Made by a program: the position numbers and the translations under genes
Source of the DNA: Porphyra umbilicalis
Lineage: Eukaryota; Rhodophyta; Bangiophyceae; Bangiales; Bangiaceae
NCBI GenBank assembly: GCA_002049455.2
Contig: KV918901.1
Location: 62,001-126,000 of the forward strand
Direction: 5' to 3'
Length of the DNA stretch: 64,000 bases
The notes under the pieces: model-generated
Told to the model about the DNA's origin: nothing
What the model saw: only the letters and a program-made list of their open reading frames with translations
Database searches by the model: none
Shown: in pieces, positions 5,309-32,299 of the stretch
Numbering within the stretch: position 1 is the first letter of the stretch
Layout of the letters: every line of letters begins with the position of its first letter

Positions 5309-7481
5309 GGCGTTGGAGGGGGAAAAGCGTCCGGTGTCGGTTTCTGGGGTGGAGGATGGAAAGGCGATGGCAGGCAGGAAAGCGACGAAAAAGGGTAGAG
5401 AGTGAGGGCGGGTGGGAGCGAGCGAGGGAGAAGCGTCGTCGGTGACCGGGCAGTGCCCACGTCCGTCAACGGCGGACCGCCAGAGGGCCGCGGTAGTTGA
5501 TGATATCGGCCGCGCCAGATCCGCCGGTCCTGGGAGTGGGCGACAGCCGCGTCGCAGCTCCTCGCACCTCCCCGGGCCCCAGAGCCACCACAGCTGCAGT
5601 GTGGCAGTGGCAGGCTTCAGCGGACCGTTGACGCCCTTTCGCAGACCCCTTTCGCAGAAGACGGGGCCCGCGATTCGAAGCTCCTATTGGCTCGTGACGG
5701 TCGCGCGGGGGTGCGCTGCAGCCCGGTGCATCCCCGATTTGTCAACATAGGATACGCGGCCGCGCCGCGTATCCTATGTTGACAACCCCGGGATGCACCG
5801 CGCTGCACGTAGTTCCGGCGAAGGCGCAAGAGTTGACATCAGTAGTTTTACTATTTGAAGATCAATTTGTCTGTATCCAGCCCCCAATTCTGTCCCTGTG
5901 ACCGGCGGCGACAGCATCAGCCCGTCTGACAAACCACTCTCGTCACTTCGCCTCGTGGAACCCATTCTTGTGTCTTGCCCCTACGTCAACAACATCCCTT
6001 CCACCTGTTCACCAACCAACCACAGCCTCTTATATTCCTGCCGAACGGCTGCGGTCGCTGCTGACACAGCAAGGTCTTCCGACAGACTGACTGGTACAGC
6101 GTGGCGGCGTGCACGCAAAATACTTCACATATGTCAACGTTGCTACCGCCTCCCAAGTATCACATGACCAGAGCTGTGCGACAAGAATGATATCGCCTGC
6201 GATGTGAAAGACAAAAGCGCAAAAAGCCAACCAGGTCGACGACGGCATCCGCTGGCGTGCGCATGGCGCAGGAGCCCCGTCGCGGGCGTGCACGTCGTCA
6301 ATATTAGAGCGAGTGCTTAAGCCAGGGGATGGAGAGGATAAAACACGCCGAGGACACATGGTCGCAGACACCATATCGACATGCGTCGCGGAGGCAGTCT
6401 GCCAAACGGGCGGGTGCATCGTGGTACGAGTCGGTGCGAAGGTGGCCATCTAGAACGTCCAGGCCAGTATTGATAGTATTGATATCAATCAATTGGATCG
6501 TGCTGGGAATATACTTGGCTCGCGTGCCTCGTAAATACAGTAACGCTCTGTCTGGTGCCCGCATGTTCTTTCGCAGATATCCTAATGCACCCCGGTTCTG
6601 CGGGCCCCGCGGAACTGCGAAACGTGCTGCGAACGGGCCTGAGGTCGAGATTTCCATCGACGAGTGTGTGTGGCTGGGCGACGGCCGTCCGGAGCGATAG
6701 GAATTGTCAGAGTCCGCCGTTCTACCGCCAATAGGAAGGGCGCATGCGACCTACCTGCCAATCCTGTAGCTCCTGCTGATCGTGCGCCTCTTGACTCACA
6801 GGACGGGGTGGCGGCGCACCGCGCGGCAGTGGTCGCCAGACAAGCTCTGGCGCAGGAACCATCTAAAATACTAAAGTCTTAAGGAGTGTACGCAATCATG
6901 GAGAGTGTGACAAATCACGGGGCCCCCTTACAGCGGCGATTCCGATGTGGTCGAGCGAGATTTCGTGGACTTGGGATTGAACGGAGCGCTTCAACAGGCT
7001 CTTTACAAGAAATAAAAGAGACCAAAGTCACCATGAGCGTCGCTGATTCGGCGATGTCAAGGGCTCATGAGACTGCCTGACGTCTCCCGCTGCGGTTGCA
7101 CTCGGTTCTGCGTCGCACTCATCCGTATTGCGTGCTCCACGGACACAGACGTGCTGTTCATGTGACTGCATGAGCACGCCGACGTCCTTCTGTCTCGTTC
7201 TCAACACGACAGAAGCCAGCCTCCCCAGGCGGTCGGCTGGCCCCAGTTCAGAGGAGAGACAGACGTGCCTCCCGTCCCTCTGAGGCCCGACTGCTGGGGT
7301 CCAGTTGGCTCGACAAGGCGCAGGTGGAACCCCATATCATTCGCCGTTGTGGCCACGACCGTCGTCTCGGCTCCAGCGAGTGCCGCAGTTGTCCTTCCTT
7401 TCCCTCCCCTCTCTTACCTCCTCTCACTTCCTCACCCACCTGCGTGAGGCGCACACTCGTTGCCCTGTGCTGTTGGACACC
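5309..7481. other. lower-GC intergenic and repeat-relic region
   Basis: About 2.2 kb upstream of petC. Apart from the long palindrome at 5714-5807 I recognise no gene, RNA or intact mobile element. Open frames here are short and stop-rich. A pyrimidine-rich tract (7385-7440) leads into the small hypothetical gene that follows. Confidence 0.45.
5714..5807. repeat. near-perfect palindrome (fold-back)
   Basis: Two arms of about 45 bases meet around CGC at 5761-5763. The inner 20 bases (GTCAACATAGGATACGCGGC) pair perfectly with 5764-5783, and outer GTGCATCCC/GGGATGCAC segments extend the stem with a few mismatches. It could be a fold-back element or an assembly/replication fold-back. Confidence 0.85.
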
Positions 7482-7766
7482 ATGGCTCCAGGCGGCCAGC
7501 ACACCGCCCGCCGTGGGCAGCCCGTCATGGCCCAGCCTACCCGCGGTCTCACCAAAGACCAGGAGGTACTGCTGGACAGCTGGCTACCTCTGCTGCGCGC
7601 GCGTGAGATGGCGGTGAGACAGGCGGCGCGGCAGCTGAGCTGCTCTGAGGGCCTCGTCGCGCGCGCTCGGGACGGATCCGTCGAGGCGAGGTCCGCCGGT
7701 CTGTCGGCGGAGCCACTCTCAGCGCCGGCCGAAAGAGCCAATAAGAAGCCTAGAATCTCCGGCTGA
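7482..7766 (+). CDS. small hypothetical protein, possible helix-turn-helix
   Basis: A 94-codon frame starting at an ATG in CACCATGG context, preceded by about 60 bases of C/T-rich sequence like that before other genes in this window. The middle (L-T-K-D-Q-E-V-L-L-D-S-W, then V-R-Q-A-A-R-Q-L-S-C-S-E-G-L-V) resembles a short DNA-binding helix-turn-helix. The end is basic (N-K-K-P-R), like a nuclear localisation signal. I do not recognise a family. It may be a remnant of a transposon or retroelement protein, since it sits in repeat-rich DNA. Confidence 0.33.
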   Translation: MAPGGQHTARRGQPVMAQPTRGLTKDQEVLLDSWLPLLRAREMAVRQAARQLSCSEGLVARARDGSVEARSAGLSAEPLSAPAERANKKPRISG

Positions 7767-8726: not shown

Positions 8727-10154
8727 CTAGTAGACCGACGCGCCGCGCGGCAGGAGCGCCGCGAGCCGCGCCGACCCCGCGTCGAGCGCGGACGTGCTCA
8801 CGCCCGTCGCGCGGAAGAGCGCGCGGAGCGGCGCCAGCAGCGCCGACGCCACCCGCGGCTCGACGGCCGTCGTAAACGTCGACGCGCGGATGCCATTGAC
8901 GAAAATGTCCCCGTGCAGCGTCTGCGGGTTGTACAGCCCCGTCTCGGTGACGGGGGAAGTAGCCGTGATAATGTCGCACTTGGCAGCGCCGACGAGCTCG
9001 AGCTCGTCCCCAAGCTTGACCGCCCCCGCCGCCGTCATCTTGCCATTGGCATACACATAGTGGCTGCGGGTGACCGTCAGCGACGCGCCCGAGGCGGTCG
9101 TCAGCTTGACAAAGGGGAAGCTCCCCGCCGCGACCTTGTGGGTAAAGAGGAAGACGCGGGAAAAGGCGTCGGCCGACACGCGCACATTGTCACCAACCGC
9201 CAGCTGGTCCATCGTCACGGTGCGGCCAGTGTCGAGCTCCACCTGGGCCGACGCTGGGAAGCACACATCATCGTCGTCACCGTCGGTCGGTGACGGTTCG
9301 GCCTCGGAGAGGCCCTCAATCACATCCGGCTCGCTGCCATCGCCCGGCACAATGACTGACGCCGACGGGGTCGGGTCCGACGGGCCCTCTCCGCCCCCCC
9401 CGCCCCCGTCGTCATTGTCGTCATCGTCATCATTGTCGTCGTTGCCCCGAACGGGCGGCGGGGCGACGGCGGCGCCGCCTGGCCGCCCCCCCCCGCCGCC
9501 CCCGTTGCCCGCCGCCCCCGTCGCCGCCCCGCCCGGCAGGCGCCCCGAGTAGGTGCACGGCACCCCGTTTGGCGCGTCGCGCGGAAACACAATCATGTAC
9601 GGGCGGCTTTCGGGGCGGAGGAAGGCCACCTGCGGCACATGGAACGACATTTCTTCCGAGATGAAAAAGGTCACGGTCGGCGCGCCAAACACCGTCGCCC
9701 CACACACCCGGTCAAACGTTTCAAAGCCGACGAGGAAGCCCGCGCGCACCGCCACCAGCTGCTCGTACACCGAGGCGAGGATCGGGTTGGTCGTCAGCAG
9801 CTCCGACAGCTGCCCCGCGAGGCGGCTGTCCCCGTTGCGGAGGGCGAGCATGGAGCCCGCCGACGTGCACGGGGACCCGTCCATGACAATGTTGCCAAAC
9901 GGCACGTTGAAGATGCCCTCGGCGGGGTTGGGCGCATCCGAGTGCACGATCGTGTCGGGGCAGTTGCCTTGGTCGATGAACCGCTTGAAGGTGCCTTTGA
10001 GTTGCGTCGGCTCAAAGACGCGGCCGGCGGTGGGGAGGCGCGGGGGGGGAAGCACCCCGCCCGCGGGTGACGCGCCTGCCGCAGCGGCGGCGGTGGCAGC
10101 GGCAACGGCGAGCGCCGCGCCGGCTGCCGCCCGCGCGGGGCGCGTGCGGACCAT
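8727..10154 (-). CDS. secreted Hint/Hog-domain protein A
   Basis: 475 residues. The N-terminus (1-30) is an Arg start followed by an Ala-rich hydrophobic segment, consistent with a signal peptide. Residues about 45-205 form a domain I do not recognise, with four cysteines (65, 96, 151, 200) shared with the second copy at 15566. A Gly/Pro linker and a short Asp/Asn-rich stretch (about 237-250) follow. Residues 297-475 are a hedgehog-type Hint domain: catalytic-type Cys298 in V-C-F-P-A-S-A, T-R-S-H at 362-365, and G-D-x-V/L turns. By analogy with Hog domains the Cys could attack the preceding peptide bond and release or lipid-modify the N-terminal part; this is inference. The ATG at 10154 lies directly after a long C/T tract ending in CAG, so a leader intron is possible. 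The tail ends S-V-Y without the usual Hog sterol-binding extension. Confidence 0.85.
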   Translation of the reverse strand: MVRTRPARAAAGAALAVAAATAAAAAGASPAGGVLPPPRLPTAGRVFEPTQLKGTFKRFIDQGNCPDTIVHSDAPNPAEGIFNVPFGNIVMDGSPCTSAGSMLALRNGDSRLAGQLSELLTTNPILASVYEQLVAVRAGFLVGFETFDRVCGATVFGAPTVTFFISEEMSFHVPQVAFLRPESRPYMIVFPRDAPNGVPCTYSGRLPGGAATGAAGNGGGGGGRPGGAAVAPPPVRGNDDNDDDDDNDDGGGGGGEGPSDPTPSASVIVPGDGSEPDVIEGLSEAEPSPTDGDDDDVCFPASAQVELDTGRTVTMDQLAVGDNVRVSADAFSRVFLFTHKVAAGSFPFVKLTTASGASLTVTRSHYVYANGKMTAAGAVKLGDELELVGAAKCDIITATSPVTETGLYNPQTLHGDIFVNGIRASTFTTAVEPRVASALLAPLRALFRATGVSTSALDAGSARLAALLPRGASVY

Positions 10155-10726
10155 GGCTGGGGGGGGAGGGGGGGGGGGGGGGGGGGGAGCGGTCGCCACG
10201 CCCAACGCACCGCTGGCAGCGACGGCGGCGGCGGCGCGCGCGACGCAGCGTCTGGCACCACGTCGACGGGCGCGCGCGCGACGGCGGTGCGTGCCGTCGG
10301 TGCCGTGATGCCGCAGACGGGCGCGTCGGCGGTGCCGCCGTGCGCGCGGCGGGCCCCTCCCACGCGGGGGGCGGCGATTAAGAGGGGGCGCCCCGCCGCC
10401 CGCGGGCGCGCCCCCCCCCGCGCCCCCCCCACCACCCGCAACGCAGCGGCGACGGCTGGGGGCGGCGCGGGGCGCGCGGCCGCATCGGCCGCCGCCGCGC
10501 GCGCACCCGCGCGGCCGACGCGGCGGCGCCGGGAGGATCCCCGCCCACCGTGCCCCAACCCCCCCGCCCCGACCGCCGACAACGGTCGCGGCCACGCGGC
10601 GGGGGGACGGACGGCGGCGCCCGCCCGCCCCCCCCCCCCCCCCCCCCCCCCCCGCATCTGCGCTGGCATCGATACGCTAGGATCTCCTATCCGAGCCACA
10701 GATTGATCTCTGGCGGGGCAGGCGGG

Positions 10727-10777
<51 letters not shown>

Positions 10778-11430
10778 GCGGCGCCGGCCCCCGCGCGGCG
10801 GCGCGGCGGCACCCCCCCCCCCCCCCCCCGCAACGGGCGGCGGACGCCGCCGCGCCGCCGCCGGGCGCTTGGCGGGCAGCGCCGGGCGCTTGGCAAGACG
10901 CGTCGCCGGCGGGGGGGGGGGGGCCCGCCGTCAGACGCGCCGGCGGGCCGCGCCGCAGCAAGCGGAGCGGCGCGCGCGAGCGCGCCCCCCGCGCGTTACT
11001 GCGAGGACGGTGGTCGCGGACGCCACGTGGGCGGCGGGGGGTGGGGGGCGGGGCGAGGCCGGCCGCGGCGGCATCGGACCGCAATGGGAGGCGGGGGCGG
11101 TGGGCAGCCTCGCGAGGCTGGGGGGGGGGGGGGGGGGGGGGGGGGGCGGGGGGCGCCGCCCAACGGGCGGCGGGGCGCGCGTCCCGCGCCGCATGGTCCG
11201 GGGTCGGCAGTGTAAACGAGATGGGGGAAGCGCCGACGGGGAGCGCCGCGCAGGGCAGTTGCGGCTGCAACTCCTCCACGAGGATGGGCAATTATACACC
11301 ACGAGGATGGGCCATTACACCGTTTGTATTGGCAGTCCGTGGCTCCCCCTGCCGGCCGACGAGGCATCTCGGCCAACCTCGTGGGGGGGGTGCCACGCCC
11401 GCCCCGCCGCCCGCGCTCGCTCGGGCCCGC
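10155..11430. other. GC-rich upstream region of Hint gene A
   Basis: About 1.3 kb of extremely GC-rich, low-complexity DNA with long homopolymers: a C run near 10628-10652, an A run of about 45 bases at 10728-10773 and a G run near 11119-11146. Several long open frames cross it on both strands, but their Arg/Pro/Gly composition marks them as shadows. It presumably contains the Hint A promoter. Confidence 0.5.
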
Positions 11431-11434
11431 GTCC

Positions 11435-11565
11435 ATGATCATCGCTGCAGGAAGCAGCCTCAACAGACAGCCATTCTGCTCGGACGTCTGTTCCGAACAG
11501 ACCCTCCACAGACGCGACTTCTGTTCAACACTTGTTATTTAGGGTGCACAGATCTGGATCGCGTG
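11435..11565. repeat. GAACAGA-rich element end, copy 1
   Basis: Contains CTGCAGGAAGCAGCC followed by several TCTGTTC/GAACAGA inverted motifs and ends near GGGTGCACAGATCTGGATC. It matches 12625-12743 in the same orientation and is an inverted relative of 14240-14425. Confidence 0.7.
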
Positions 11566-12070
11566 TTCGCACAAGAAAATAAGCTCCATTGAAGACCGTG
11601 GTTAGGTGTCCAGCGGAAAACGGCTTAGTTCCACACGAGGCAGTCCATATCCCACAAATCCAACAGGCTGGTTTCCAAGTATATGTCACCTGCTGAATCG
11701 ATTCGTGCTGACCGTTGAAGCAATAGGCAGCGCTACCCCACACAAAGAGGACACGGAGTGTTGGACAGGAGCAAAGCACACGCTGGAGAGAGAAGCATGT
11801 CAGAATGTCCGAGGTCACACCGGTCCTCTAGAGAGTAAAAAACGTCACGTCAAGTGCGGACAGAGGGACGGCAGCGCCGCGGTGCCATGGTCGTGCAACA
11901 AGAAGTATTCGGAGCAAGTGGAGGGGGGTGGGAGCGGTACAGGAGGAAGGCACATGACTGCAGAGAGGATACATGAGAGCGTGGAGCTGGAGATACCGAA
12001 CGTACTACTAGGACGCACATGCGGTATGGGTGGCTGCGACCGTGCGGTGAAAGGCTTCGTGTCGCGCTGA

Positions 12071-12209
12071 GGTACAGCCGTTCTCTCAAAAACCTCGCAC
12101 GCCAACTGTGCACCACTCTGACATATCGGCCTCTGCGACCCCGTAAAGGCCGATTTGTAAGAGTGGTGCAGCAGTCGGCGTCCGAGGTTTTTGCGAGACC
12201 GGCTGTACC
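12071..12209. repeat. fold-back MITE-like element
   Basis: About 139 bases with imperfect inverted arms of about 60 bases. GGTACAGCC pairs with GGCTGTACC at the tips, AAAAACCTCG with CGAGGTTTTT, and TGCACCACTCT with AGAGTGGTGCA. The centre is a short spacer near 12132-12148. No target duplication is evident. Confidence 0.8.
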
Positions 12210-12408
12210 GTCGAGCGATTCCTCAGTCGACGACCCAAGGAGGACACGGACTGTTTTAGCTGTATTTGAAATTCTTCTGCACTGATCGATCAGGCAGTCC
12301 TTCTTGTCATCTTCTAAGTTTCTGCAAGGTGCGCCTCCGGTGTCTTCATTCCCATCCACCCCTGTCAATTCATCAATTTGAGCCGTTACGCACTCCAGGT
12401 CCTGGCCC

Positions 12409-12743
12409 ATGCACGGACGCCCCACGAGAGAGGGCAACAGCGTGGCCAAACAGAATCGCCATCTGTTTGGGGTCTGTTGCCCGAACAGACGCCCAAACGG
12501 ATCGGCGTTATGTTGCCCGTTCCCGAACGGACTGTCGAGCTGCATCCTGCAGCGACCATAACAGCAGTTGCGGCGGCGCATCCGCGGCAAAAGGCGTGCC
12601 CAGCCGCCGCGCGGCCGACGATCGTCGCAGCAGGAAACAGCCTCAACAGACGGCCATTTTGTTCGGGCGTCTGTTCCGAACAGACCTTCAACAGACGCGA
12701 CTTCTGTTCGGAACCTGTTCGGGTGCACGGATCTGGATCACGA
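12409..12743. repeat. complete short GAACAGA-rich inverted-repeat element, copy 2
   Basis: The left part (12409-12560) has CATGCACGG, CACGAGAGAGGG and clustered GAACAGA/TCTGTTC motifs, then GCTGCATCCTGCAGCGACC. The right part (12625-12743) carries the inverted counterpart and ends GGGTGCACGGATCTGGATC. Only about 60 bases separate the arms, so this is a compact nonautonomous element of the family also seen at 11435 and 14240. Confidence 0.72.
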
Positions 12744-14239
12744 GCTCGGGAAAAAAACGGGCGGGTCAGGCGAGCAAGCCGCTCCGACCGTCGTGTTGAG
12801 TGGTGCTGGTGAAAACGGCTTAGTGCGACGGAATGCAGGCCATGACCTGTGGAGAGTGCTCTAAAAAAGCATTACTACTGTGTTGAGCTGACGTCTAAAG
12901 AATTGCATCGTCCTGGCTGCTTCGCCATTGGCACCACGGTGCATCACTAAAAAAAAGGCCGCGGTTCTCTTTTGTACGTCTCCCCGACTACACCAGCGAC
13001 AATGCCCTCGACGCAAGAAAAGAGGGCACGACGCAGAGCGAGGCCAGTTGCGAACAGCGCAGTCTCACACCAACCCGGCAACCAACACGCAGAGAAAACA
13101 ACAACACAAACGACCCCGATACACGCATTCCGGGAAAGCGCCAGACGACGGAGACAGGCCCGTCGCCACAGCAAACAATGCGCGCACAGAAGAGAGCGGG
13201 AAACACGAACAAACGAGCAGACAAACGAGGTGACAGGGACTTGGCCAGTGCGAATCGACGGAACCCTCGGAGCCGTCCAAACGCCTGATCGGCAGGCACA
13301 GGGGCATTCGATGTACCTTAGACACGAGCGGCATCGTAGGCCCGCCACTGAGCGGCGTATTCCGCAGAGACGGGGCGAATTTCTTCATCATCTTCTTCGT
13401 CCACGACGTCCAGACGCTGGCGCTCCGCCTCGCGCGCGGCTTGCGACCCAGGAAGAGCCGAGACACCGACAGGGAGAGGCGCTAGACGCACAGCGTGAGG
13501 GGGCGTCGGAACAATGACACCGGCCTGGGGCTGTGGCAGAGCGAAGCTTGCGGTCTCTGGCGCCGACGCAACACGAACGGTCGGCGGGGGCGTTGCAGCC
13601 ACGACATCCACGTCCGACACCAGATGACGGCGGCCTTTCTCGCCGTCGAGCAGTTGCGGGCCATCATATACGACGGCGTCCTTGGGCAGGACACCGTGAG
13701 GCGGCCGGCGTTGGGGGTGGGGGCTGCCGGTCGGTGTTGGCGGCGGGGCTGTGGGTGGGGTTGGCGGTGGGGTTTTTCGGCGGGGCTGTTGGTGGGGTGA
13801 AGGTCGGGCGTGTGTGTAAATGCCGGTTGAGTGGACCAAGTGTAGGACGGTAACTCGTAGCGATTGAGCGCGACTGGTGGCTCGCCAAAACGAAGCAACT
13901 AGACAGTGTCACCGACGTGACGATGACGGTCCGTTGTTTCTAAGTTTCTTTGACAACCACGTTGACCCTCGTCGCGACGGCGGACCGCTACGTCGTAGCT
14001 TGCCTTTATCGCTGGCGCCTACCACTCCCACTGCAATTCGTAGGTTGATCGTCTGCGTCTGTCGCGTCATAAATGCCGAAATAATTCTCAGAGACAATCG
14101 TGCTTTGTTGCAGATGCAGTCCTCAGCAGCGAGCACTCAGTCCAGCTAACACCCGGGTGAAGGGCCATTAGGCAGCTCTGTTCTCTACTTCACTGCTAAC
14201 CGACCGAAGGGAGCCGATACGCGCACGAGACCTTGGCAG
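12744..14239. other. mixed intergenic region
   Basis: About 1.5 kb between two repeat copies. A 3' open piece on the minus strand at 13318-13839 (173 codons without an ATG; Pro-rich, then an acidic D-E-E-D-D-E-E motif and an A-A-Q-W-R-A-Y-D-A-A-R-V end) might be an exon of an unknown gene. I give it low weight and do not list it as a CDS. Nothing else is recognised. Confidence 0.35.
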
Positions 14240-14425
14240 CATGCACGGATCCCCCACGAGAGAGGGTACTGTATTTTACTGTAACAGCGGCGCCGAACAG
14301 AATCGCCGTCTGTTCGGCGTCTGTTGCCCGAACAGACGCCCGAACAGATCGGCATTCTGTTGCCCGTTCCCGAACAGACCATTCTGTTCGGCGTTCCGTT
14401 GGGCTGCATCCTGCAGCGACGATCT
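14240..14425. repeat. GAACAGA-rich element end, copy 3
   Basis: Begins CATGCACGG, then CACGAGAGAGGG, then clustered inverted GAACAGA motifs and GCTGCATCCTGCAGCGACGA. It is homologous to 12409-12560 in the same orientation. It sits about 1.1 kb upstream of Hint gene B, mirroring copy 1 about 1.3 kb upstream of Hint gene A. Confidence 0.72.
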
Positions 14426-14915
14426 GCGGGGGGGTGAGCGCGCACCCCGCCGCCGGCGCCGCAGCGCCGCGGCGCCACCCCCATTCGGCGCCGGCCCGTT
14501 CCGCACGGCGCCGAGGTGCGCCGGTCGCGGCGACGCGCGCGCGCGGGGCGGCGCCGCCGCCGCTGCCGCCGCCCCCCCGCGGGCGCCCGCCGGCTGCAAG
14601 TCGGCACGTGTGTGTGCAAGTCGCGCCGCCCGCCGCCGCCGCCGCCGTCGGCCCGCGTCGGCGGCGGGTGGGGGGGCGGCGCGCGCGCAGCCGCCGCCGC
14701 CGCGCCGCCGCGCGCGTCTGCCGCGGCGGTTGCGCCCGCGTGCGGGCGCCGCGGCGGCGGCGCCGCGCGTGCCCGCCGCCGGCCACAGCCGTGGCACCCG
14801 CCGCGGCGGGCCGGATCGCCCGACGGGTGTGCCCGCGGGGTGGGGGGGGTGGGGGGGGTGGGGGGGTGTGCTCGCAAGGTTGGGGGGGGGGGGTGCTGGC
14901 AGGGGGGGGGAAGGG

Positions 14916-14953
<38 letters not shown>

Positions 14954-15523
14954 GCCCCCCCCGCCCCCGCCGCCGGTCGGGCGACCCCCTCGCGGCGGCG
15001 CCCGCCGCGTCGAGTGGCCCGCTGCGCGGCGCGCGGCGGCCGCGGTTTGCAAGCGCCCGCCGGTCGGGCGCGGCGGCCGCGGCGGCCGCCCGGCGGGGGG
15101 CGCCGCGCCTGCCAGGCGGCGGCCGCCGCGGCGGCGGCGCCGCCGCTGCCGCCGCCGCCCGTGGCGCCGTGGAGGTTGGCGCCGCCGCCGCCCGTGGCGC
15201 GGGCGCGGGTGGGTGGCGGGGGCGGTCGGGGGACCGCCCCCGCCGCCGCCCCGAGGGGGCGCCCCCACGCGGCGCCGCCCACCCGCCGGGGGGGCGGCAC
15301 GCGTGGGGGCGGGCGCCGTCGGCCCCGCCGCCCCGGCAGCCGCCGTGGGCGCGTGCGAGGATAAAGCAGGCGGCGGCGGGCGGTGGAGGCGGCGGGCTGG
15401 CTGCGTTTGGAGCAACAGCGACCGGCTCGCCAAGTCGCCGCGTGCCCTTCCCCCCCCGCCACGCAACACGCGCACATCTGCCGTCGTCGACTGCCACGCC
15501 GCCCTCTCCCCTCCCGTCCGTCC

Positions 15524-15555
<32 letters not shown>

Positions 15556-15565
15556 AGTCGGCGCC
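14426..15565. other. GC-rich upstream region of Hint gene B
   Basis: About 1.1 kb of CGCC/GGCG low-complexity sequence with a long G run at about 14917-14952. A C run of about 27 bases (15528-15554) lies 11 bases upstream of the Hint B start codon. Long open frames in all directions are compositional artefacts. Confidence 0.5.
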
Positions 15566-17578
15566 ATGTTGTTTGCTCAGACGACCCGCACGGCGGCCGC
15601 GTCGCTGGTCGCCGCGGCCGCCGCCGTGGCCGTTGGCGTCTCGGCCGGCCCCATCCCCAACGCGCTGCCCGTGTCGGCGAGGGCCTTTACGCCCGACGAG
15701 TTGGCCGGCACCTTTACCCGCTTCATCGGCCAAGGCAACTGCCCCCTGACCATCCGCCACACGGGCTTTACGCGCGTGGCCAATGGGGTTATCAATGTGC
15801 CCTTTCAAAACATCCTCATGGGCGGCGACCGCTGCACGGCGCCGGGCTCCATGGTCGTCCTCCGCAGCTCGGATCGGGAGCTGGCCGGCCGGCTGGCCGA
15901 GATCCTCAAAACCAACCCGGTGCTGTCCGAGGTGTACGATGAGTTGACGCGCGCCGGCTCCGAGTTCCTCGTCGGCTTTGAGACGGTCGACCGCGTGTGT
16001 GGGGCGACGACCTTCCAGGCGCCGACCTTAACCTTTTTTGTCGACGATGATGCGGGGCTGTCGGTGCCGTCGGTGGCCTTCCTCCGCCCCTCCCTCGGTC
16101 CGTTTATGATGGTGTTCAAGACGGGCAACCCGGGGGGCATCCCCTGCACCTACGCCGTCGGCACGGGGCCGGCCGACCGGGGCACCGTTGATGCTGCGGG
16201 CGGCACTGACAATGACGACGATGACGATAACGATGATGACGACGATAGCGATGATGACGACGACGATAACGATGATGACGACGATAACGATGATGACGAC
16301 GATAGCGATAGCGATGATGACGACGACGATAACGATGATGACGACGATAACGATGACGACGACGACGATGACGCCGACGTGGTCGTTGTGCCGGTTGTGC
16401 CTGTTGTGGTGAATCAGCCGGTGAACCCGGCTGACACGGCCGACGTCGACTCGATCGACGATGACAATGACGGTATCCCCGACCCGTCTGATCCGGACGA
16501 CGACAATGACGGGCTGCTCGACAATGACGATGCCGACAATGACGGCGATGGTATTGCGGACATCAACGACGTGCCCCGCAACGATGGCGCGGATGTGGAC
16601 AAGGGTGCGCCAATTGTCCCGGCGTTTGGCGGGGAGGACATCGACTCGATCGACGATGACAATGACGGGCTCGACGACCCGGTCGACCCGGATGACGACA
16701 ATGACGGGGTCCTCGACAATGACGATGCCAACAATGACGGCGACGGCGTGCCGGATGTGGCCGACACCCCCCGCAATGACGGTGCGGATGACGGGGAGGG
16801 CGCGGCGGTGGTGCCTGACGACGGAGAGGGCGCGGCGGTGGTGCCGGTCCCTGGCGACGGGGAGGACACGGACGTAAACGACGACGGCTTGGTGCCGGTC
16901 CAGGACGACGGCGGCGATGGGACCCCGGACGTGAACGACGGCGACGATGGGATCCCGGTCGTGAACGACGATGTAGACACGGACGGTGACGTGGCGGGCG
17001 TCGATGATGCGCTGCCGTCGCCGTCGGACGATGACTCGGTGTGCTTCCCAGCGTCGGCCGAGGTGGAGCTTGATACCGGCCGCACCGTGACAATGGACCA
17101 GCTGGCGGTTGGGGACAATGTGCGCGTGGCGGCCGACGCCTTTTCCCGCGTCTTCCTCTTTACCCACAAGATCGCGTCGGGCAGCTTTGCCTTTGTCAAG
17201 CTGACGACCGCCTCGGGCGCGTCGCTGACGGTCACCCGCAGCCACTATGTGTATGCCAATGGCAAGATGACGGCGGCGGGGGCGGTCAAGCTTGGGGACA
17301 AGCTCGAGCTCGTCGGCGCTGCCAAGTGCGACATTATCACGGCTACTTCCCCCGTCACCGAGACGGGGCTGTACAACCCGCAGACGCTGCACGGGGACAT
17401 TGTCGTCAATGGCATCCGCGCGTCGACGTTTACGACGGCCGTCGAGCCGCGGGTGGCGTCGGCGCTCCTGGCGCCGCTCCGCGCGCTCTTCCGCGCGACG
17501 GGCATGAGCACGTCCGCGCTCGACGCGGGGTCGGCGCGGCTGGCAGCGCTGCTGCCGCGCGGCGCGTCGGTCTACTAG
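15566..17578 (+). CDS. secreted Hint/Hog-domain protein B with acidic calcium-binding-like repeats
   Basis: 670 residues. A signal-peptide-like hydrophobic N-terminus (about 8-27, then V-S-A-G) precedes the same unknown four-cysteine domain as protein A (about 40-200; Cys 59, 90, 145, 194). Residues about 215-270 are almost purely Asp with Asn and Ser. Residues about 293-400 hold two long blocks of D-x-D-x-D-G repeats resembling thrombospondin type 3 calcium-binding motifs. An acidic linker leads to the Hint domain at 492-670 with Cys493 (V-C-F-P-A-S-A) and T-R-S-H at 557-560. The Hint part differs from protein A at only about 8 of 179 residues, while the N-terminal domain is far more diverged. 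Likely an extracellular or cell-wall protein that may self-process. The gene is divergent from its paralogue. Confidence 0.87.
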   Translation: MLFAQTTRTAAASLVAAAAAVAVGVSAGPIPNALPVSARAFTPDELAGTFTRFIGQGNCPLTIRHTGFTRVANGVINVPFQNILMGGDRCTAPGSMVVLRSSDRELAGRLAEILKTNPVLSEVYDELTRAGSEFLVGFETVDRVCGATTFQAPTLTFFVDDDAGLSVPSVAFLRPSLGPFMMVFKTGNPGGIPCTYAVGTGPADRGTVDAAGGTDNDDDDDNDDDDDSDDDDDDNDDDDDNDDDDDSDSDDDDDDNDDDDDNDDDDDDDADVVVVPVVPVVVNQPVNPADTADVDSIDDDNDGIPDPSDPDDDNDGLLDNDDADNDGDGIADINDVPRNDGADVDKGAPIVPAFGGEDIDSIDDDNDGLDDPVDPDDDNDGVLDNDDANNDGDGVPDVADTPRNDGADDGEGAAVVPDDGEGAAVVPVPGDGEDTDVNDDGLVPVQDDGGDGTPDVNDGDDGIPVVNDDVDTDGDVAGVDDALPSPSDDDSVCFPASAEVELDTGRTVTMDQLAVGDNVRVAADAFSRVFLFTHKIASGSFAFVKLTTASGASLTVTRSHYVYANGKMTAAGAVKLGDKLELVGAAKCDIITATSPVTETGLYNPQTLHGDIVVNGIRASTFTTAVEPRVASALLAPLRALFRATGMSTSALDAGSARLAALLPRGASVY

Positions 17579-27892: not shown

Positions 27893-30613
27893 TCAGATGG
27901 CGCGCTGCATGTGCGCGCCAACTGTTGTAGCCGCCTCCTTGGTAATCCCCGCCGCCCACATCTTGCGCTTCTTCGCGGCTTTTCGGCTCTCTGCCCCACA
28001 AATTGGGAGCTGCGGCTTGTTCTCCCGCCGCCGCTTGTCACCGACCTTACGTGCCATGCGGGCCCCCGGTACAGCAGGCTTTCGTCGCGGCGCGTAGCGC
28101 GCAAGCACATCAGCCCCTGCCTCTCGTGCGAGTGCCATAGCCCTCATAAATGCCGCCGCACGCTCCAGCTCCGTGGCACCGGGGTACTTGACAGCACTCT
28201 GGCCGTAGCGGCCGTGCCACGCCTCTAAGCCCTGCTCCCCATACAGCCCGATACTGCCAAAGGACTCCAGAAAAGCCGGAGCATGGCACATCAGGATGTG
28301 CAACTTCGGTGAGATGGAGACCCAAGGAAAGCTTCCCTTCAGCAAGCGCACCATTGCAGCGGTGTCCGCCCTAAAGAGCGCGGCCTCAGCGCGGGGGATG
28401 ATCGACGCACGGTTAAGGGTTTTGCGCACCCGATTCCACAGCGACCACGCCTGTTCGTAGGCATCAAGGTGGCTCTGTGAGACCTTTCCCTTGAGCGCGT
28501 TACACACGAGCGCACTGCTGTCCCCAATAGTGTGACAGTCGCGGCCAATGAAGAGCCCGCCATGGTACGGCGTAGGCCGCACGCGCACCTTCTCGTGCAG
28601 CAGGCCAACAAGCTCGAGGGCAAAGCTGGCGCCCGCCTGTCGCCCAGCAGCAGCGCCGTCAGCTGAGCCCCGAAAGACCATCACCATCTCAACAGCAAGC
28701 CGCAAATACCGATGGTTAATTCCTAGCGTGCAATGCAGTGGAATTGGTACAATTTGCCGCGGGTTGATGGCAAGTAGGGGGCTTCGCTCCACCGAGCAGT
28801 GGTGCTCGGCTGTGCCGGGCTCGCCCACCACCGCCGCAGCGCCTTCAGCAACCATCCGATCGGCAAAGTGCGTTGCCTCTCGCAGGTGCCTGCGGGTGTC
28901 AACGTCTTGGAGGGTGCCATAGGCATCGTCGAGTACGGCCTGCGCGACACTCGGAAACCGCGTGCTCTTGCATCCCAGACAGGGCTGCGTCGCAGACGCA
29001 CCCTTGTGGCCCAGGACGTTGCACTGCGCTGCGTAGTCGCTGCCGAGCAGCAGCCGCACTGGGCGGTGCACACCGCGCACCAACACCCCATCCCGAAGCA
29101 GAGCGTCGACCTGCGGGAGGTGCGTCTCGAGCATTGCCGCAAGCTCCTCGTACTTGTCGTCCTGGCAGGGGCAAACGGCCACCAGTATCGTGTTGGATGG
29201 ACTGTTGGGGTGGGCTTGGTTAATAATTGTTGCCACAATTTTCACCGTCCCCGGGTCGCCTCCTTTGTCGAGGCCGAGGGTGATCTGCACGTCGAGTTCA
29301 GACGGAGAGGGAGACCCGGGAAGAACCGCGACCGCCGGGGCTCCGGCGGAGCCACTGGGCTCCCGTTGGCTGTCAGCCAGAGGTCTCTCGACGAAGGCGT
29401 CCGCGTCACACAGAGCCGAGACCCTCTCCTGGATGGCCGCAGTGAGGGATGCCAGATGGGCGCCCGAGCCCGTGACGATGACCTGCTTCCCCGGTAAATC
29501 AGAGAGCTGCCGCCGCGCGGCCCGGAGCACAGACAAACTGGCTAAGCCACTGCGGCGCCCCCCCAGAGCCAAGCGCCACCGGTTGAACCCGATATGACTC
29601 AGTCGCAGGGCCGCTGCCAGGCCCACCTGCTCGGCCACAGTGAGCCGCACGGGCTCACGGGCGGGTCGCGGGCTGTCGCGCCTCGTCCCCACCATCCCGC
29701 CGCGCGTGTCTTCCTGCAGCTTACGCGCGGCAGCGCGGCGCTTGTTAGCTTGACTGCTCTTGACCAGAGCCTTCCGCGGCGACATCTGCCGCGCGTACAC
29801 GACCACGCGTCCATTCTTGTGCTTGAGCCGGATCTGGGGGCGCTTGCCACGCAGCAAAATTGCGTTGGCAATTGCCTCCAGCACCGACTTGTCCTCCTCC
29901 CCGCCGTAATTCCCATCCACAAGACAGTCAAGGAAATCCTTGCAGCTTGGAATTGCCGCAGGCTCGGCCGCCTGCGTCGGAGCGGGTAAAGGCTCCGCGC
30001 CACCCGTCGCAGCTGGCGCACCTTCGTGGGGGTCGGCCGGGGGACACAGCTGCGCGTCTGCGGCCTCGCCAGGCATGGGCGCCGCAGCACGGCCTCGCTC
30101 TTGCCGTGCCTGTAGATGACACGCGTCATCTGGCTCGTCCGTGACCCGAGCGTTCCCAACGGATGCAGAAGTATCTGTGCAGCCCCCTGAAGGCATCAGG
30201 CTGACCACCGGCGCGCTCGTAGCCATCGTGCTCGAAGCCAGACACGTAGAGGGTCCCCAAACGCGAGACTGCACGCCGGCAGAGGCGGGGGGGTGGGGGG
30301 TGGGAGTAGCAGGTGTAGCGGGCGCCGCGCGACGTGCCGCTCGTGTGCGCCTGGCATAGCACTTGCCGCAACGGCCGCGGGGAGTGCCAGACGCGTCCAT
30401 GCCAAGCACCTGGGCCCCTTGTTTGCACAATATGACTGGAAGGCTGGCAACGACGGCATGAGGTGAGCCAGGAGGGAGAGACTGAGCCCACTCCCGCCAC
30501 GCTTGCATCCCTTTTGTGGGTTTGAGGAGGAGCCGCATGCAGTCGACGCATTGATAGGCCCACACTGTGCCTTTGAACGCAACGCCAATGTCTGCTGCGG
30601 TTGCCCTGTTCAC
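27893..30613 (-). CDS. DDE-type transposase, superfamily not assigned
   Basis: A single 906-codon open frame with strong protein character. The N-terminus has zinc-knuckle-like pairs (C-V-D-C at 22-25, C-G-K-C at 82-85). Residues 100-220 are low complexity. The core has L-G-L-D-K-G-G-D around D449, G-S-D-Y near D526 followed by G-H-K-G and C-L-G-C at 545-548, P-K-L-H-I-L at 769-774, and E-Q-G-L-E-A-W-H at 793-800. This order of D, D, a Cys pair and E fits an RNase H-like DDE transposase. The tail is Lys/Arg-rich. The frame starts at a GTG just after a TGA, with CAG immediately before it, so the true N-terminus probably lies in an upstream exon. GC is lower than in host genes. Terminal inverted repeats were not identified. 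Confidence 0.7.
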   Translation of the reverse strand: MNRATAADIGVAFKGTVWAYQCVDCMRLLLKPTKGMQAWREWAQSLPPGSPHAVVASLPVILCKQGAQVLGMDASGTPRGRCGKCYARRTRAARRAAPATPATPTPHPPASAGVQSRVWGPSTCLASSTMATSAPVVSLMPSGGCTDTSASVGNARVTDEPDDACHLQARQERGRAAAPMPGEAADAQLCPPADPHEGAPAATGGAEPLPAPTQAAEPAAIPSCKDFLDCLVDGNYGGEEDKSVLEAIANAILLRGKRPQIRLKHKNGRVVVYARQMSPRKALVKSSQANKRRAAARKLQEDTRGGMVGTRRDSPRPAREPVRLTVAEQVGLAAALRLSHIGFNRWRLALGGRRSGLASLSVLRAARRQLSDLPGKQVIVTGSGAHLASLTAAIQERVSALCDADAFVERPLADSQREPSGSAGAPAVAVLPGSPSPSELDVQITLGLDKGGDPGTVKIVATIINQAHPNSPSNTILVAVCPCQDDKYEELAAMLETHLPQVDALLRDGVLVRGVHRPVRLLLGSDYAAQCNVLGHKGASATQPCLGCKSTRFPSVAQAVLDDAYGTLQDVDTRRHLREATHFADRMVAEGAAAVVGEPGTAEHHCSVERSPLLAINPRQIVPIPLHCTLGINHRYLRLAVEMVMVFRGSADGAAAGRQAGASFALELVGLLHEKVRVRPTPYHGGLFIGRDCHTIGDSSALVCNALKGKVSQSHLDAYEQAWSLWNRVRKTLNRASIIPRAEAALFRADTAAMVRLLKGSFPWVSISPKLHILMCHAPAFLESFGSIGLYGEQGLEAWHGRYGQSAVKYPGATELERAAAFMRAMALAREAGADVLARYAPRRKPAVPGARMARKVGDKRRRENKPQLPICGAESRKAAKKRKMWAAGITKEAATTVGAHMQRAI

Positions 30614-32299
30614 AGTGTAGTTTCAAGATGCAGCGAAAAGGACAGGTGGCACGCTGACATGCAATAGATTGAAGCCGTGGACAGGAGGAAAAGGTGAGCG
30701 TAAGTTCCTTTTGCGTGCCCAACGCGTCCGTCTTGCGCCCGTCCAGCCCAGGACGAATTTATCGAACCCCGTCAGCCCCGTTGACCCTCCGCTGGTGTGC
30801 TTGTCCTGTCAACACGAGCAAACGTTACACAACAACAGAACTTACGTCCGGTCTTCATCGTCGTCCGCCATTTTGGGAACCACCACAGGAAGACGGCAAC
30901 GGCACAGGGAGTACTAAGTGGCTTCTGAATCACCTGCAGGCGCAACGCGCAGCAGCGCGCGGGCAAGACTTGATCCGGCCGATCAAGTCACACGCCGTCC
31001 CCGGCTCATCCTCTGTTGCAGACCCCTCTCAAATCGGCCGGAAAGCCCGGTTTGGGTCGCGTCCCCTGTTCCGGCGACCCCTCTCACAGAGGCCGTAGAG
31101 GCATAATTGGCGACGCGTCGCCAATTCTGCCCCTACGGCCTCTGTGAGAGGGATCACGCTCTCTCGACCACTGAGATTTTAGCACGTTGAAGGAACTATT
31201 TTCGAACGTCTCGTGTAAAGCTCAGACCCAGAAGAGCACGACAAACTAGGCGTGTGGCGGGCCCGCGAGAACGGTCTGCTGCCACACAACTCTAAGCCGT
31301 GGACTGCAACAATTCGCTCGCTCGCTTTGTCAGACAGGACGGGCCTGTGTGACACGTTTGTCCCCGAATGCTGCAGCAGACAGCGCCGTGCCTGCCAGCG
31401 GTGCTTCATCACGCCGTGGGCGCGTAGCAGCGCCGCGTTTGGTTCCCACCAAGCTCCTGCTGCGTCATCCACGGCGGCCCAGCAGGACACTCTGTCGCTT
31501 CTCAACTGTAGGGCTTCGTCCTCCACGTAGACGACATCTGCAAGAAAGCTCTTCTTGGCTCTGCTCCATGCCCAGTCGGCACAACGTTCGGTGCCACAAC
31601 ATACAACGCGCTGCATGCGCTCAAGAAGAATAGATGAAAAAAGGCGGGTGGGCGGCCGCCGCGCTACCATCGCACGTGGAATGTGTGCTCTGGCGGCTCA
31701 TACCGGAGGCATCTTCGCAGTGGGGCGGTGCCCGTAGAGTACAGAGCCCATAGAATGCTGGCAACGAACCAAGTGAAGGGCCGTTCGGGACAGGACGAGA
31801 CTCGAGGGCCAAGACGCTTAAGTGTGCCTTTCTATATACCAAAGAGCTGGAATACAACAGCCTCATGCGACAAAGAAAAAAGAAACAGGGCAGACGGAAG
31901 GCGGGACGTCGCAGGCCCGAGATTTGATGAACTTTCGGAGGAGATCGTGACCCGTCCAACGGCGGTGTCTCTCGAAGCGCCGCACGTGACATGGCCCTCG
32001 TCGGCACGATGAACGACGTGGCCGTGGAGGAGGGGAGAGCCTAAGCGAGAGGCATCTGCTGTGGGCGGTACCATGCCGCCGGTGGCCCCATTTGGGAGTC
32101 AGGAGAGTGCCTACGTCGGTGTCACCCTTGGGAGGCGTGGTGTCGCCGCCACGACCCCCACGACCGCCGCTGCTCGGGCGTTTGGATCCATCAGAGCAGT
32201 CTGGCAGGCCACTTCCTCAGACGACGCTTCCTTAGAAGTAGCTTCCTCTGGCTTCGCCCCAACGAGCGGTACCGCCTCCCGCGTCATCGAAGCTGGTGC
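30614..32299. other. intergenic region with palindrome
   Basis: About 1.7 kb upstream of the transposase. It may contain the other end of that element. Apart from the palindrome at 31078-31152 I recognise nothing. Confidence 0.4.
31078..31152. repeat. near-perfect palindrome
   Basis: CCCTCTCACAGAGGCCGTAG opens the left arm and CTACGGCCTCTGTGAGAGGG closes the right. The arms of about 37 bases meet at CGACG/CGTCG (31111-31120) with essentially no loop and about two imperfections. Confidence 0.85.

Follow-up and report, generated by a model that had tools for sequence, protein, structure and literature searches.

The best-known examples of sterol attachment to proteins are the hedgehog signals. 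Here we describe two genes, A and B, that lie in a 64,000-nucleotide stretch of contig C141 (the whole stretch analysed, hereafter the window) and encode a Hint domain of the hedgehog (Hog) type behind a four-cysteine cargo domain. Like the Hog domain of animal Hedgehog (Drosophila structures 1AT0, 6TYY and 6TD6), the Hint domains of the family to which A and B belong share a first cysteine (Cys1), a Thr/Ser-x-x-His motif, a C-terminal place after a predicted secreted cargo and, in most of the tails read, a motif loosely resembling that of the sterol recognition region (SRR). In contrast to the animal domain, the algal family has His in place of Asp46 (70/70), lacks Gly before Cys1 (60/60) and has mostly lost C143, while the cargo of A and B is not the Hedge signalling domain.

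Hog domains outside the hedgehog proteins have been described from red algae and protists (Buerglin 2008, PMC2362128). These likewise place Hog after a secreted N-terminus of unknown type, often with conserved Cys, and in red algae and mosses Ser, Thr or Asp stands where motif J would have its Cys. At most 6 Hog sequences per red alga were then at hand, compared with ~77 loci and several known cargo domains here. Many Hog-related paralogues in the same paper have novel N-terminal domains, some without Hog, which may be compared with the Hint-less four-cysteine loci discussed below; the four-cysteine cargo of A and B, in contrast, matches no Pfam family. The kelch-Hint proteins of Cyanidiales, encoded by subtelomeric genes, likewise combine a secreted-type cargo, a Thr/Pro/Ala-rich linker and a Hint domain; the Hog genes of four Cyanidiophyceae species number 10, 17, 3 and 2 (PMC9812998, PMC13353863). 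Kelch matches also stand beside Hint in the present genome, at C316 and C367; carbonic anhydrase, fasciclin, imelysin and four-cysteine cargo are seen here, whereas they were not found in the accessible portions of those two papers.

The features of the two window genes are as follows.

8727..10154, minus strand: protein A, 475 residues plus stop, Hog protein with four-cysteine cargo (uninterrupted open reading frame, Pfam Hint 2e-21)
9546..10022, minus strand: four-cysteine domain of A, Cys 65/96/151/200 (member of a 22-strong iterated-profile family)
9264..9545, minus strand: linker of A, Gly-rich with a short acidic run (95 residues, 23% Asp + Glu)
8874..9263, minus strand: Hint core of A, Cys298-Phe427, with His339 (aligned with fly Asp46), Thr362 and His365 (Pfam, PDB match, alignments)
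8730..8873, minus strand: tail of A, 48 residues, SRR-like, with LLAPLR (the 6td6 alignment extends into it)
15566..17578, plus strand: protein B, 670 residues plus stop, Hog protein with four-cysteine cargo (uninterrupted open reading frame, Pfam Hint 7e-23)
15680..16156, plus strand: four-cysteine domain of B, Cys 59/90/145/194 (56% identity to the domain of A)
16157..17041, plus strand: linker of B, acidic, with Asp/Asn runs and repeated DDDNDG blocks (296 residues, 42% Asp + Glu; blocks shared with a third copy)
17042..17431, plus strand: Hint core of B from Cys493, with His534 (aligned with fly Asp46), Thr557 and His560 (Pfam, alignments)
17432..17575, plus strand: tail of B, 48 residues, SRR-like, with LLAPLR (tail comparison)

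A preliminary description of this DNA had proposed, from the letters alone, a pair of secreted Hog proteins with a Cys-initiated Hint domain bearing T-R-S-H. Both open reading frames (ORFs), that of A running from a Met at 10154 to a stop ending at 8727, are free of internal stops, and each proved to end in a Pfam Hint domain containing TRSH. The PDB sequences nearest to Hint are those of Drosophila hedgehog (6tyy, 3e-5; 6td6, 6e-5; 1at0, 7e-4), which agrees with the proposed Hog identity, and the 6td6 alignment of A continues past Hint into the SRR-like tail. Judged from sequence, the Hint assignment of both proteins is well beyond chance. Vint matched over the Hint region of A and B only below threshold (13.4 and 12.8 bits against a Pfam cut-off of 27), and no VWA domain was matched by Pfam in either protein, placing them outside the Vint (VWA-Hint) class. 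Nor was a Hedge signalling domain detected, Pfam at E ≤1 returning Hint and the sub-threshold Vint alone.

The signal-like N-terminus ascribed to both proteins is matched by a hydrophobic N-terminal stretch in each, and the shared four-cysteine domain of ~160 residues was recovered as described. Neither this domain nor the linker of B matched any Pfam family, in keeping with the view that the cargo is uncharacterised. A likeness of the B linker to thrombospondin-3 was rejected for the same lack of a Pfam match. The claim of an acidic linker held for B, that of A being only mildly acidic. Likewise, the term 'divergent' suits the cargo and not the Hint domains, which are identical at 170 of 178 residues, and the pair, although real, is two-thirds of a trio whose third copy is elsewhere on the contig, not in the window (C141:35.3-37.1 kb). 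The earlier interpretation as a whole is thus partly supported; the size of the family, its range of cargo and the replacement of Asp by His were beyond the reach of that description.

We determined the extent of the family in the assembly (83.8 Mb, 665 contigs). Phycobilisome genes are gathered on contig C665 (185 kb; 10/11 matches), and the phycocyanin alpha encoded there is closest to 6kgx, from Porphyridium, and to similar chains. Such a contig together with a nuclear genome of this kind identifies the host as a red alga, consistent with the algal origin suggested earlier. A search with the Pfam Hint profile gave 80 matches at E ≤0.001, corresponding to ~77 loci since frames on C16, C393 and C140 hold two matches each; 3 of the loci fall under the Pfam cut-off. 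We read 62 loci as ORFs (60 fetched, plus A and B; four lack the 3' end in the fetched stretch) and 8 as short pieces, while in the remaining 7 the profile match begins at position 53 or beyond. Pfam confirmed Hint in 62/62 ORFs, and 44 of them have, by a simple score, a Met with a hydrophobic stretch after it. Relatives of the A Hint domain were absent from the viral_contigs and genome_contigs collections, which exclude eukaryotic genomes by design, so that this result says little.

For the active site, the 62 ORFs were aligned to the fly domain and the 8 pieces to a profile of those 62. Cys1 is present in 60/62 ORFs, the two exceptions lacking their 5' part; position 69 is Ser in 39 and Thr in 23, and His72 is found in every one. 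The fly general base, Asp46 (D303), is replaced by His in 62/62 ORFs and 8/8 pieces, and in a second alignment made with another tool, H339 and H365 of A occupy two of the three invariant columns. The late cysteine (C143/C400) is Thr in 32/62 ORFs, A and B among them, and Cys in 5/62; its replacement is already on record for other red algae. The family therefore has, by profile, the Hint fold with a nucleophilic Cys1 and the TxxH motif of Hog, without the Asp46 general base and the late Cys. In the tails after Hint, a loose pattern resembling LAP-R occurs in 42/58, and linkers are rich in Pro, Thr and Ser in 28/59 proteins.

This conservation bears on whether the Hint modules have lost their catalytic activity, or act only in structure or binding within proteins that stay whole. 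Some loci are broken or partial (L085, L088, L090), as such a role would allow; nevertheless, the retention of Cys1 and His72 across a very divergent family, and a dN/dS (nonsynonymous to synonymous rate ratio) of ~0.2-0.3 in the Hint domains of the trio, make it quite unlikely.

The His at the Asp46 place has a precedent in the fly, where the D303H mutant (structure 6TYY) kept structure and activity with broader sterol use (PMC9163320), and efficiency with coprostanol rose >200-fold (PMC9163320, PMC8529194). Among the matches listed in the openly accessible literature, including the accessible parts of papers, we found no report of His as the natural residue at this position, and the word 'histidine' was not found in the text of PMC2362128.

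We propose that A and B undergo Hog-type self-cleavage with sterol attachment, yielding surface proteins, a reading to which we assign a probability of roughly 0.55. A and B would enter the secretory pathway, where Cys298 of A or Cys493 of B, the first residue of Hint, would attack the preceding peptide bond to form a thioester. A small nucleophile, most likely the hydroxyl of a sterol bound by the short SRR-like tail, would be activated by His339 or His534 in place of the animal Asp. The N-terminal four-cysteine domain would then be freed as a lipid ester and so fixed to the wall or to the outside of the membrane. Other cargo domains of the family would be processed by this module in the same way. 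The proposal draws on the presence of Hint in 62/62 ORFs, the conserved Cys1, Ser or Thr at position 69 and His72, the His in place of Asp46 in 70/70, the LAP-R-like tails (42/58) and the 6td6 match of A, the hydrophobic starts, the usually extracellular kinds of the cargo with known folds, the activity of fly D303H with a wider range of sterols (PMC9163320) and the occurrence of cholesterol as the main sterol of red algae (PMC5104453, PMC8172173, PMC8657749). Secretion, cleavage, the sterol as nucleophile and tethering are thus steps that we infer, starting from a domain order, conserved active site, uniform His, family size and cargo variety that were observed directly.

Several findings weigh against this proposal. 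A Met with a hydrophobic start was missing, by the simple score, from 18/62 Hint ORFs; C143 is retained as Cys in 5/62; and the residue before Cys1 (n=60) is Ala in 18, Val in 13, Ser in 10, Asp in 6, Thr in 5 and another in 8, but Gly in 0/60, unlike hedgehog, which has Gly there (PMC9163320). The LAP-R-like pattern, loosely defined as it is, is missing from 16/58 tails. Furthermore, oxidosqualene cyclase (PF13243), known from the red algae Chondrus and Laurencia (PMC5104453), was not found in the assembly at E ≤0.001 with two controls above the cut-off, leaving sterol synthesis by the alga unsupported. Its absence is unexpected for a red alga.

Some of these findings are what would be seen if self-cleavage freed the cargo as an acid by hydrolysis, or passed it to a non-sterol nucleophile, such as a hydroxyl of a wall polysaccharide, with Hint acting as a maturation switch or a wall-coupling device. 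The residues needed for thioester formation are conserved while the sterol-specific ones differ (His for Asp46 in 70/70; the incomplete set of LAP-R-like tails), the sterol cyclase was not found, and the Pro/Thr/Ser-rich linkers of 28/59 proteins point the same way. We regard this as the chief rival, though the less likely of the two readings, given that in the fly a His at this position still allows sterol attack (PMC9163320) and that the SRR-like motif is kept in 42/58 tails.

The trio offered a view of how cargo and module evolve. Synonymous (dS) and nonsynonymous (dN) divergence is 0.62-0.71 and 0.37-0.40, respectively, between the cargo domains, and 0.08-0.18 and 0.02-0.04 between the Hint domains. 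Linker blocks, too, are common to B and the third copy, with 79% identity across 135 aligned positions. No similarity was found among the flanks of the trio in 700 bases past the stop or 800 before the Met. The contrast in dS between cargo and Hint suggests that gene conversion, or several rounds of exchange, acted on the C-terminal module as the cargo kept diverging. Hint domains far more alike than their cargo, along with the mixing of cargo types on the Hint tree described below, might also be left by inteins, or by mobile Hint elements spreading through insertion at gene ends. We rejected such an origin as highly improbable: beyond the Hint core, A and B have only a 48-residue tail and a stop, so that there is no C-extein, the best matches are to hedgehog Hint and not to inteins, and the trio showed no similarity in the 700 bases downstream.

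We next compared the cargo. With A as the seed, an iterated profile gathered 22 members among 59 searched N-termini (those of the other three ORFs being too short), so that homologues with the domain order described for A and B exist within the genome. In an alignment of 18 members, the four with unclear boundaries being left out, the four cysteines are the only invariant columns. A profile of these 18 matched no PDB sequence at E ≤10, and no relatives were found in viral_contigs, where the exclusion of eukaryotic genomes again makes the result say little. The domain, whole or partial, also occurs at C66, C244, C273, C182 and C336 with no Hint in the ~1.5 kb of flank available, and some of these loci are broken by stops or partial.

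Most N-termini outside the four-cysteine family have no Pfam name. The named exceptions include fasciclin, alpha carbonic anhydrase and imelysin, all of kinds that are usually extracellular. Fasciclin occurs in tandem in two Hint proteins (2/7 fasciclin ORFs of the genome carry Hint) and imelysin in one. Alpha carbonic anhydrase shares an ORF with Hint at C455 and lies directly upstream of Hint, in another frame, at C439 and C220; these make up 3/12 of the genome's carbonic anhydrase loci, and their three Hint domains form one group on the Hint tree (Shimodaira-Hasegawa-like approximate likelihood ratio test, SH-aLRT, 94). A DOMON match at C159 (L060) is weak, below the Pfam cut-off.

The Hint tree was built by a quick method, making counts of cargo-label changes rough, and its labels omit the four-cysteine domain of C14 and the carbonic anhydrases of C439 and C220, each of which lies in another frame than its Hint. 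Cargo labels are clustered on it, with 20 changes compared to a shuffled mean of 33.7, a value as low being reached in 0/200 shuffles. The four-cysteine label nevertheless requires 12 changes, 2 of them forced by starred branches, and one starred group (99) unites both fasciclin Hints with a Hint carrying another cargo family. Labels that are clustered yet mixed indicate that cargo and module have at times recombined.

Further arrangements were noted among the cargo loci. At C439 (L071), C220 (L053) and C14 (L014), cargo and Hint lie on the same strand in different frames, with the switch inside repetitive linkers; introns, frameshifts and assembly errors are candidate causes. At C243:32-52 kb, seven Hint matches are clustered on one contig (L057, L062, L075, L080, L082 and two unread), and 4/5 of the read members share a different type of cargo with a Cys-rich motif at its end. 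Within C145:130655-137368, a fasciclin-Hint gene lies a few kb from a 1132-residue frame with several carbonic anhydrase stretches.

Three Patched-family matches were found, two of which were compared (L092 and L093; that on C3 was not read). Both are transporter genes with a sterol-sensing domain, L092 resembling Patched and NPC1 about equally and L093 being nearer to NPC1. They fit general sterol handling and nothing more; a hedgehog pathway is not shown by them.

Synthesis of glycosylphosphatidylinositol (GPI) anchors is apparently missing in Rhodophyta, according to a glycosyltransferase survey covering two unicellular species (PMC3797821). In our assembly, PIG-T, PIG-A and PIG-M gave no match at E ≤1 with controls matching only below the cut-off, and Gaa1 gave none with no control matching either; all 14 controls in these searches were prokaryotic, and thus no true positive control was included. 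STT3, in contrast, gave a match at 1e-97. Hog might serve as a substitute for GPI anchors, against which stands the absence of PF13243 as well. With that gene also missing, absences in this assembly are soft, and the ideas of a GPI substitute and of sterol attachment are both weakened: either the assembly or search misses genes, which weakens the GPI absence, or the alga is unusual, which weakens the sterol step. Among the matches listed we found no joint report of Hog and GPI loss in red algae, and the two red algal Hog papers there do not contain 'GPI anchor'. A broader scheme, in which red algae, reported to have no GPI anchors, use Hog as a general plug-in lipid anchor for carbonic anhydrase, fasciclin and four-cysteine cargo, with the His base loosening sterol choice and gene conversion keeping the module uniform as the cargo diverges, is accordingly speculative and rather doubtful.

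Red algal Hog proteins with unknown N-termini (PMC2362128) and kelch-Hint fusions (PMC9812998, PMC13353863) have already been published. New, as far as checked, are the scale of the family, its carbonic anhydrase, fasciclin and imelysin cargo, the four-cysteine domain, the His seen throughout, and the differing divergence of cargo and Hint in the trio. The secreted-looking Hog family may represent a means, so far little studied, of anchoring proteins at the cell surface. If the family is active, then one alga makes dozens of sterol-attached proteins, enzyme and adhesion domains among them, and makes natural use of an active-site His otherwise met, among the matches listed in the openly accessible literature, only as an engineered change. 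The role of Hog proteins before animals would become testable, and an answer would be offered to how red algae tether surface proteins, given the apparent lack of GPI synthesis reported for two unicellular species (PMC3797821). A surface-bound carbonic anhydrase, if real, would bear on carbon uptake by seaweeds.

Among the neighbours of A and B, those with a Pfam name are unremarkable: spermidine synthase, a DUF1517 protein, the Rieske protein PetC and pyrroline-5-carboxylate reductase. Open frames at 7287-7763 (plus strand) and 13321-13905 (minus strand), beside and between the two genes, have no Pfam match. A 908-residue open frame at 27896-30619 of the window (minus strand) matches DUF1280 weakly (E 4e-6, barely above the cut-off) and gives the impression of a transposon protein.

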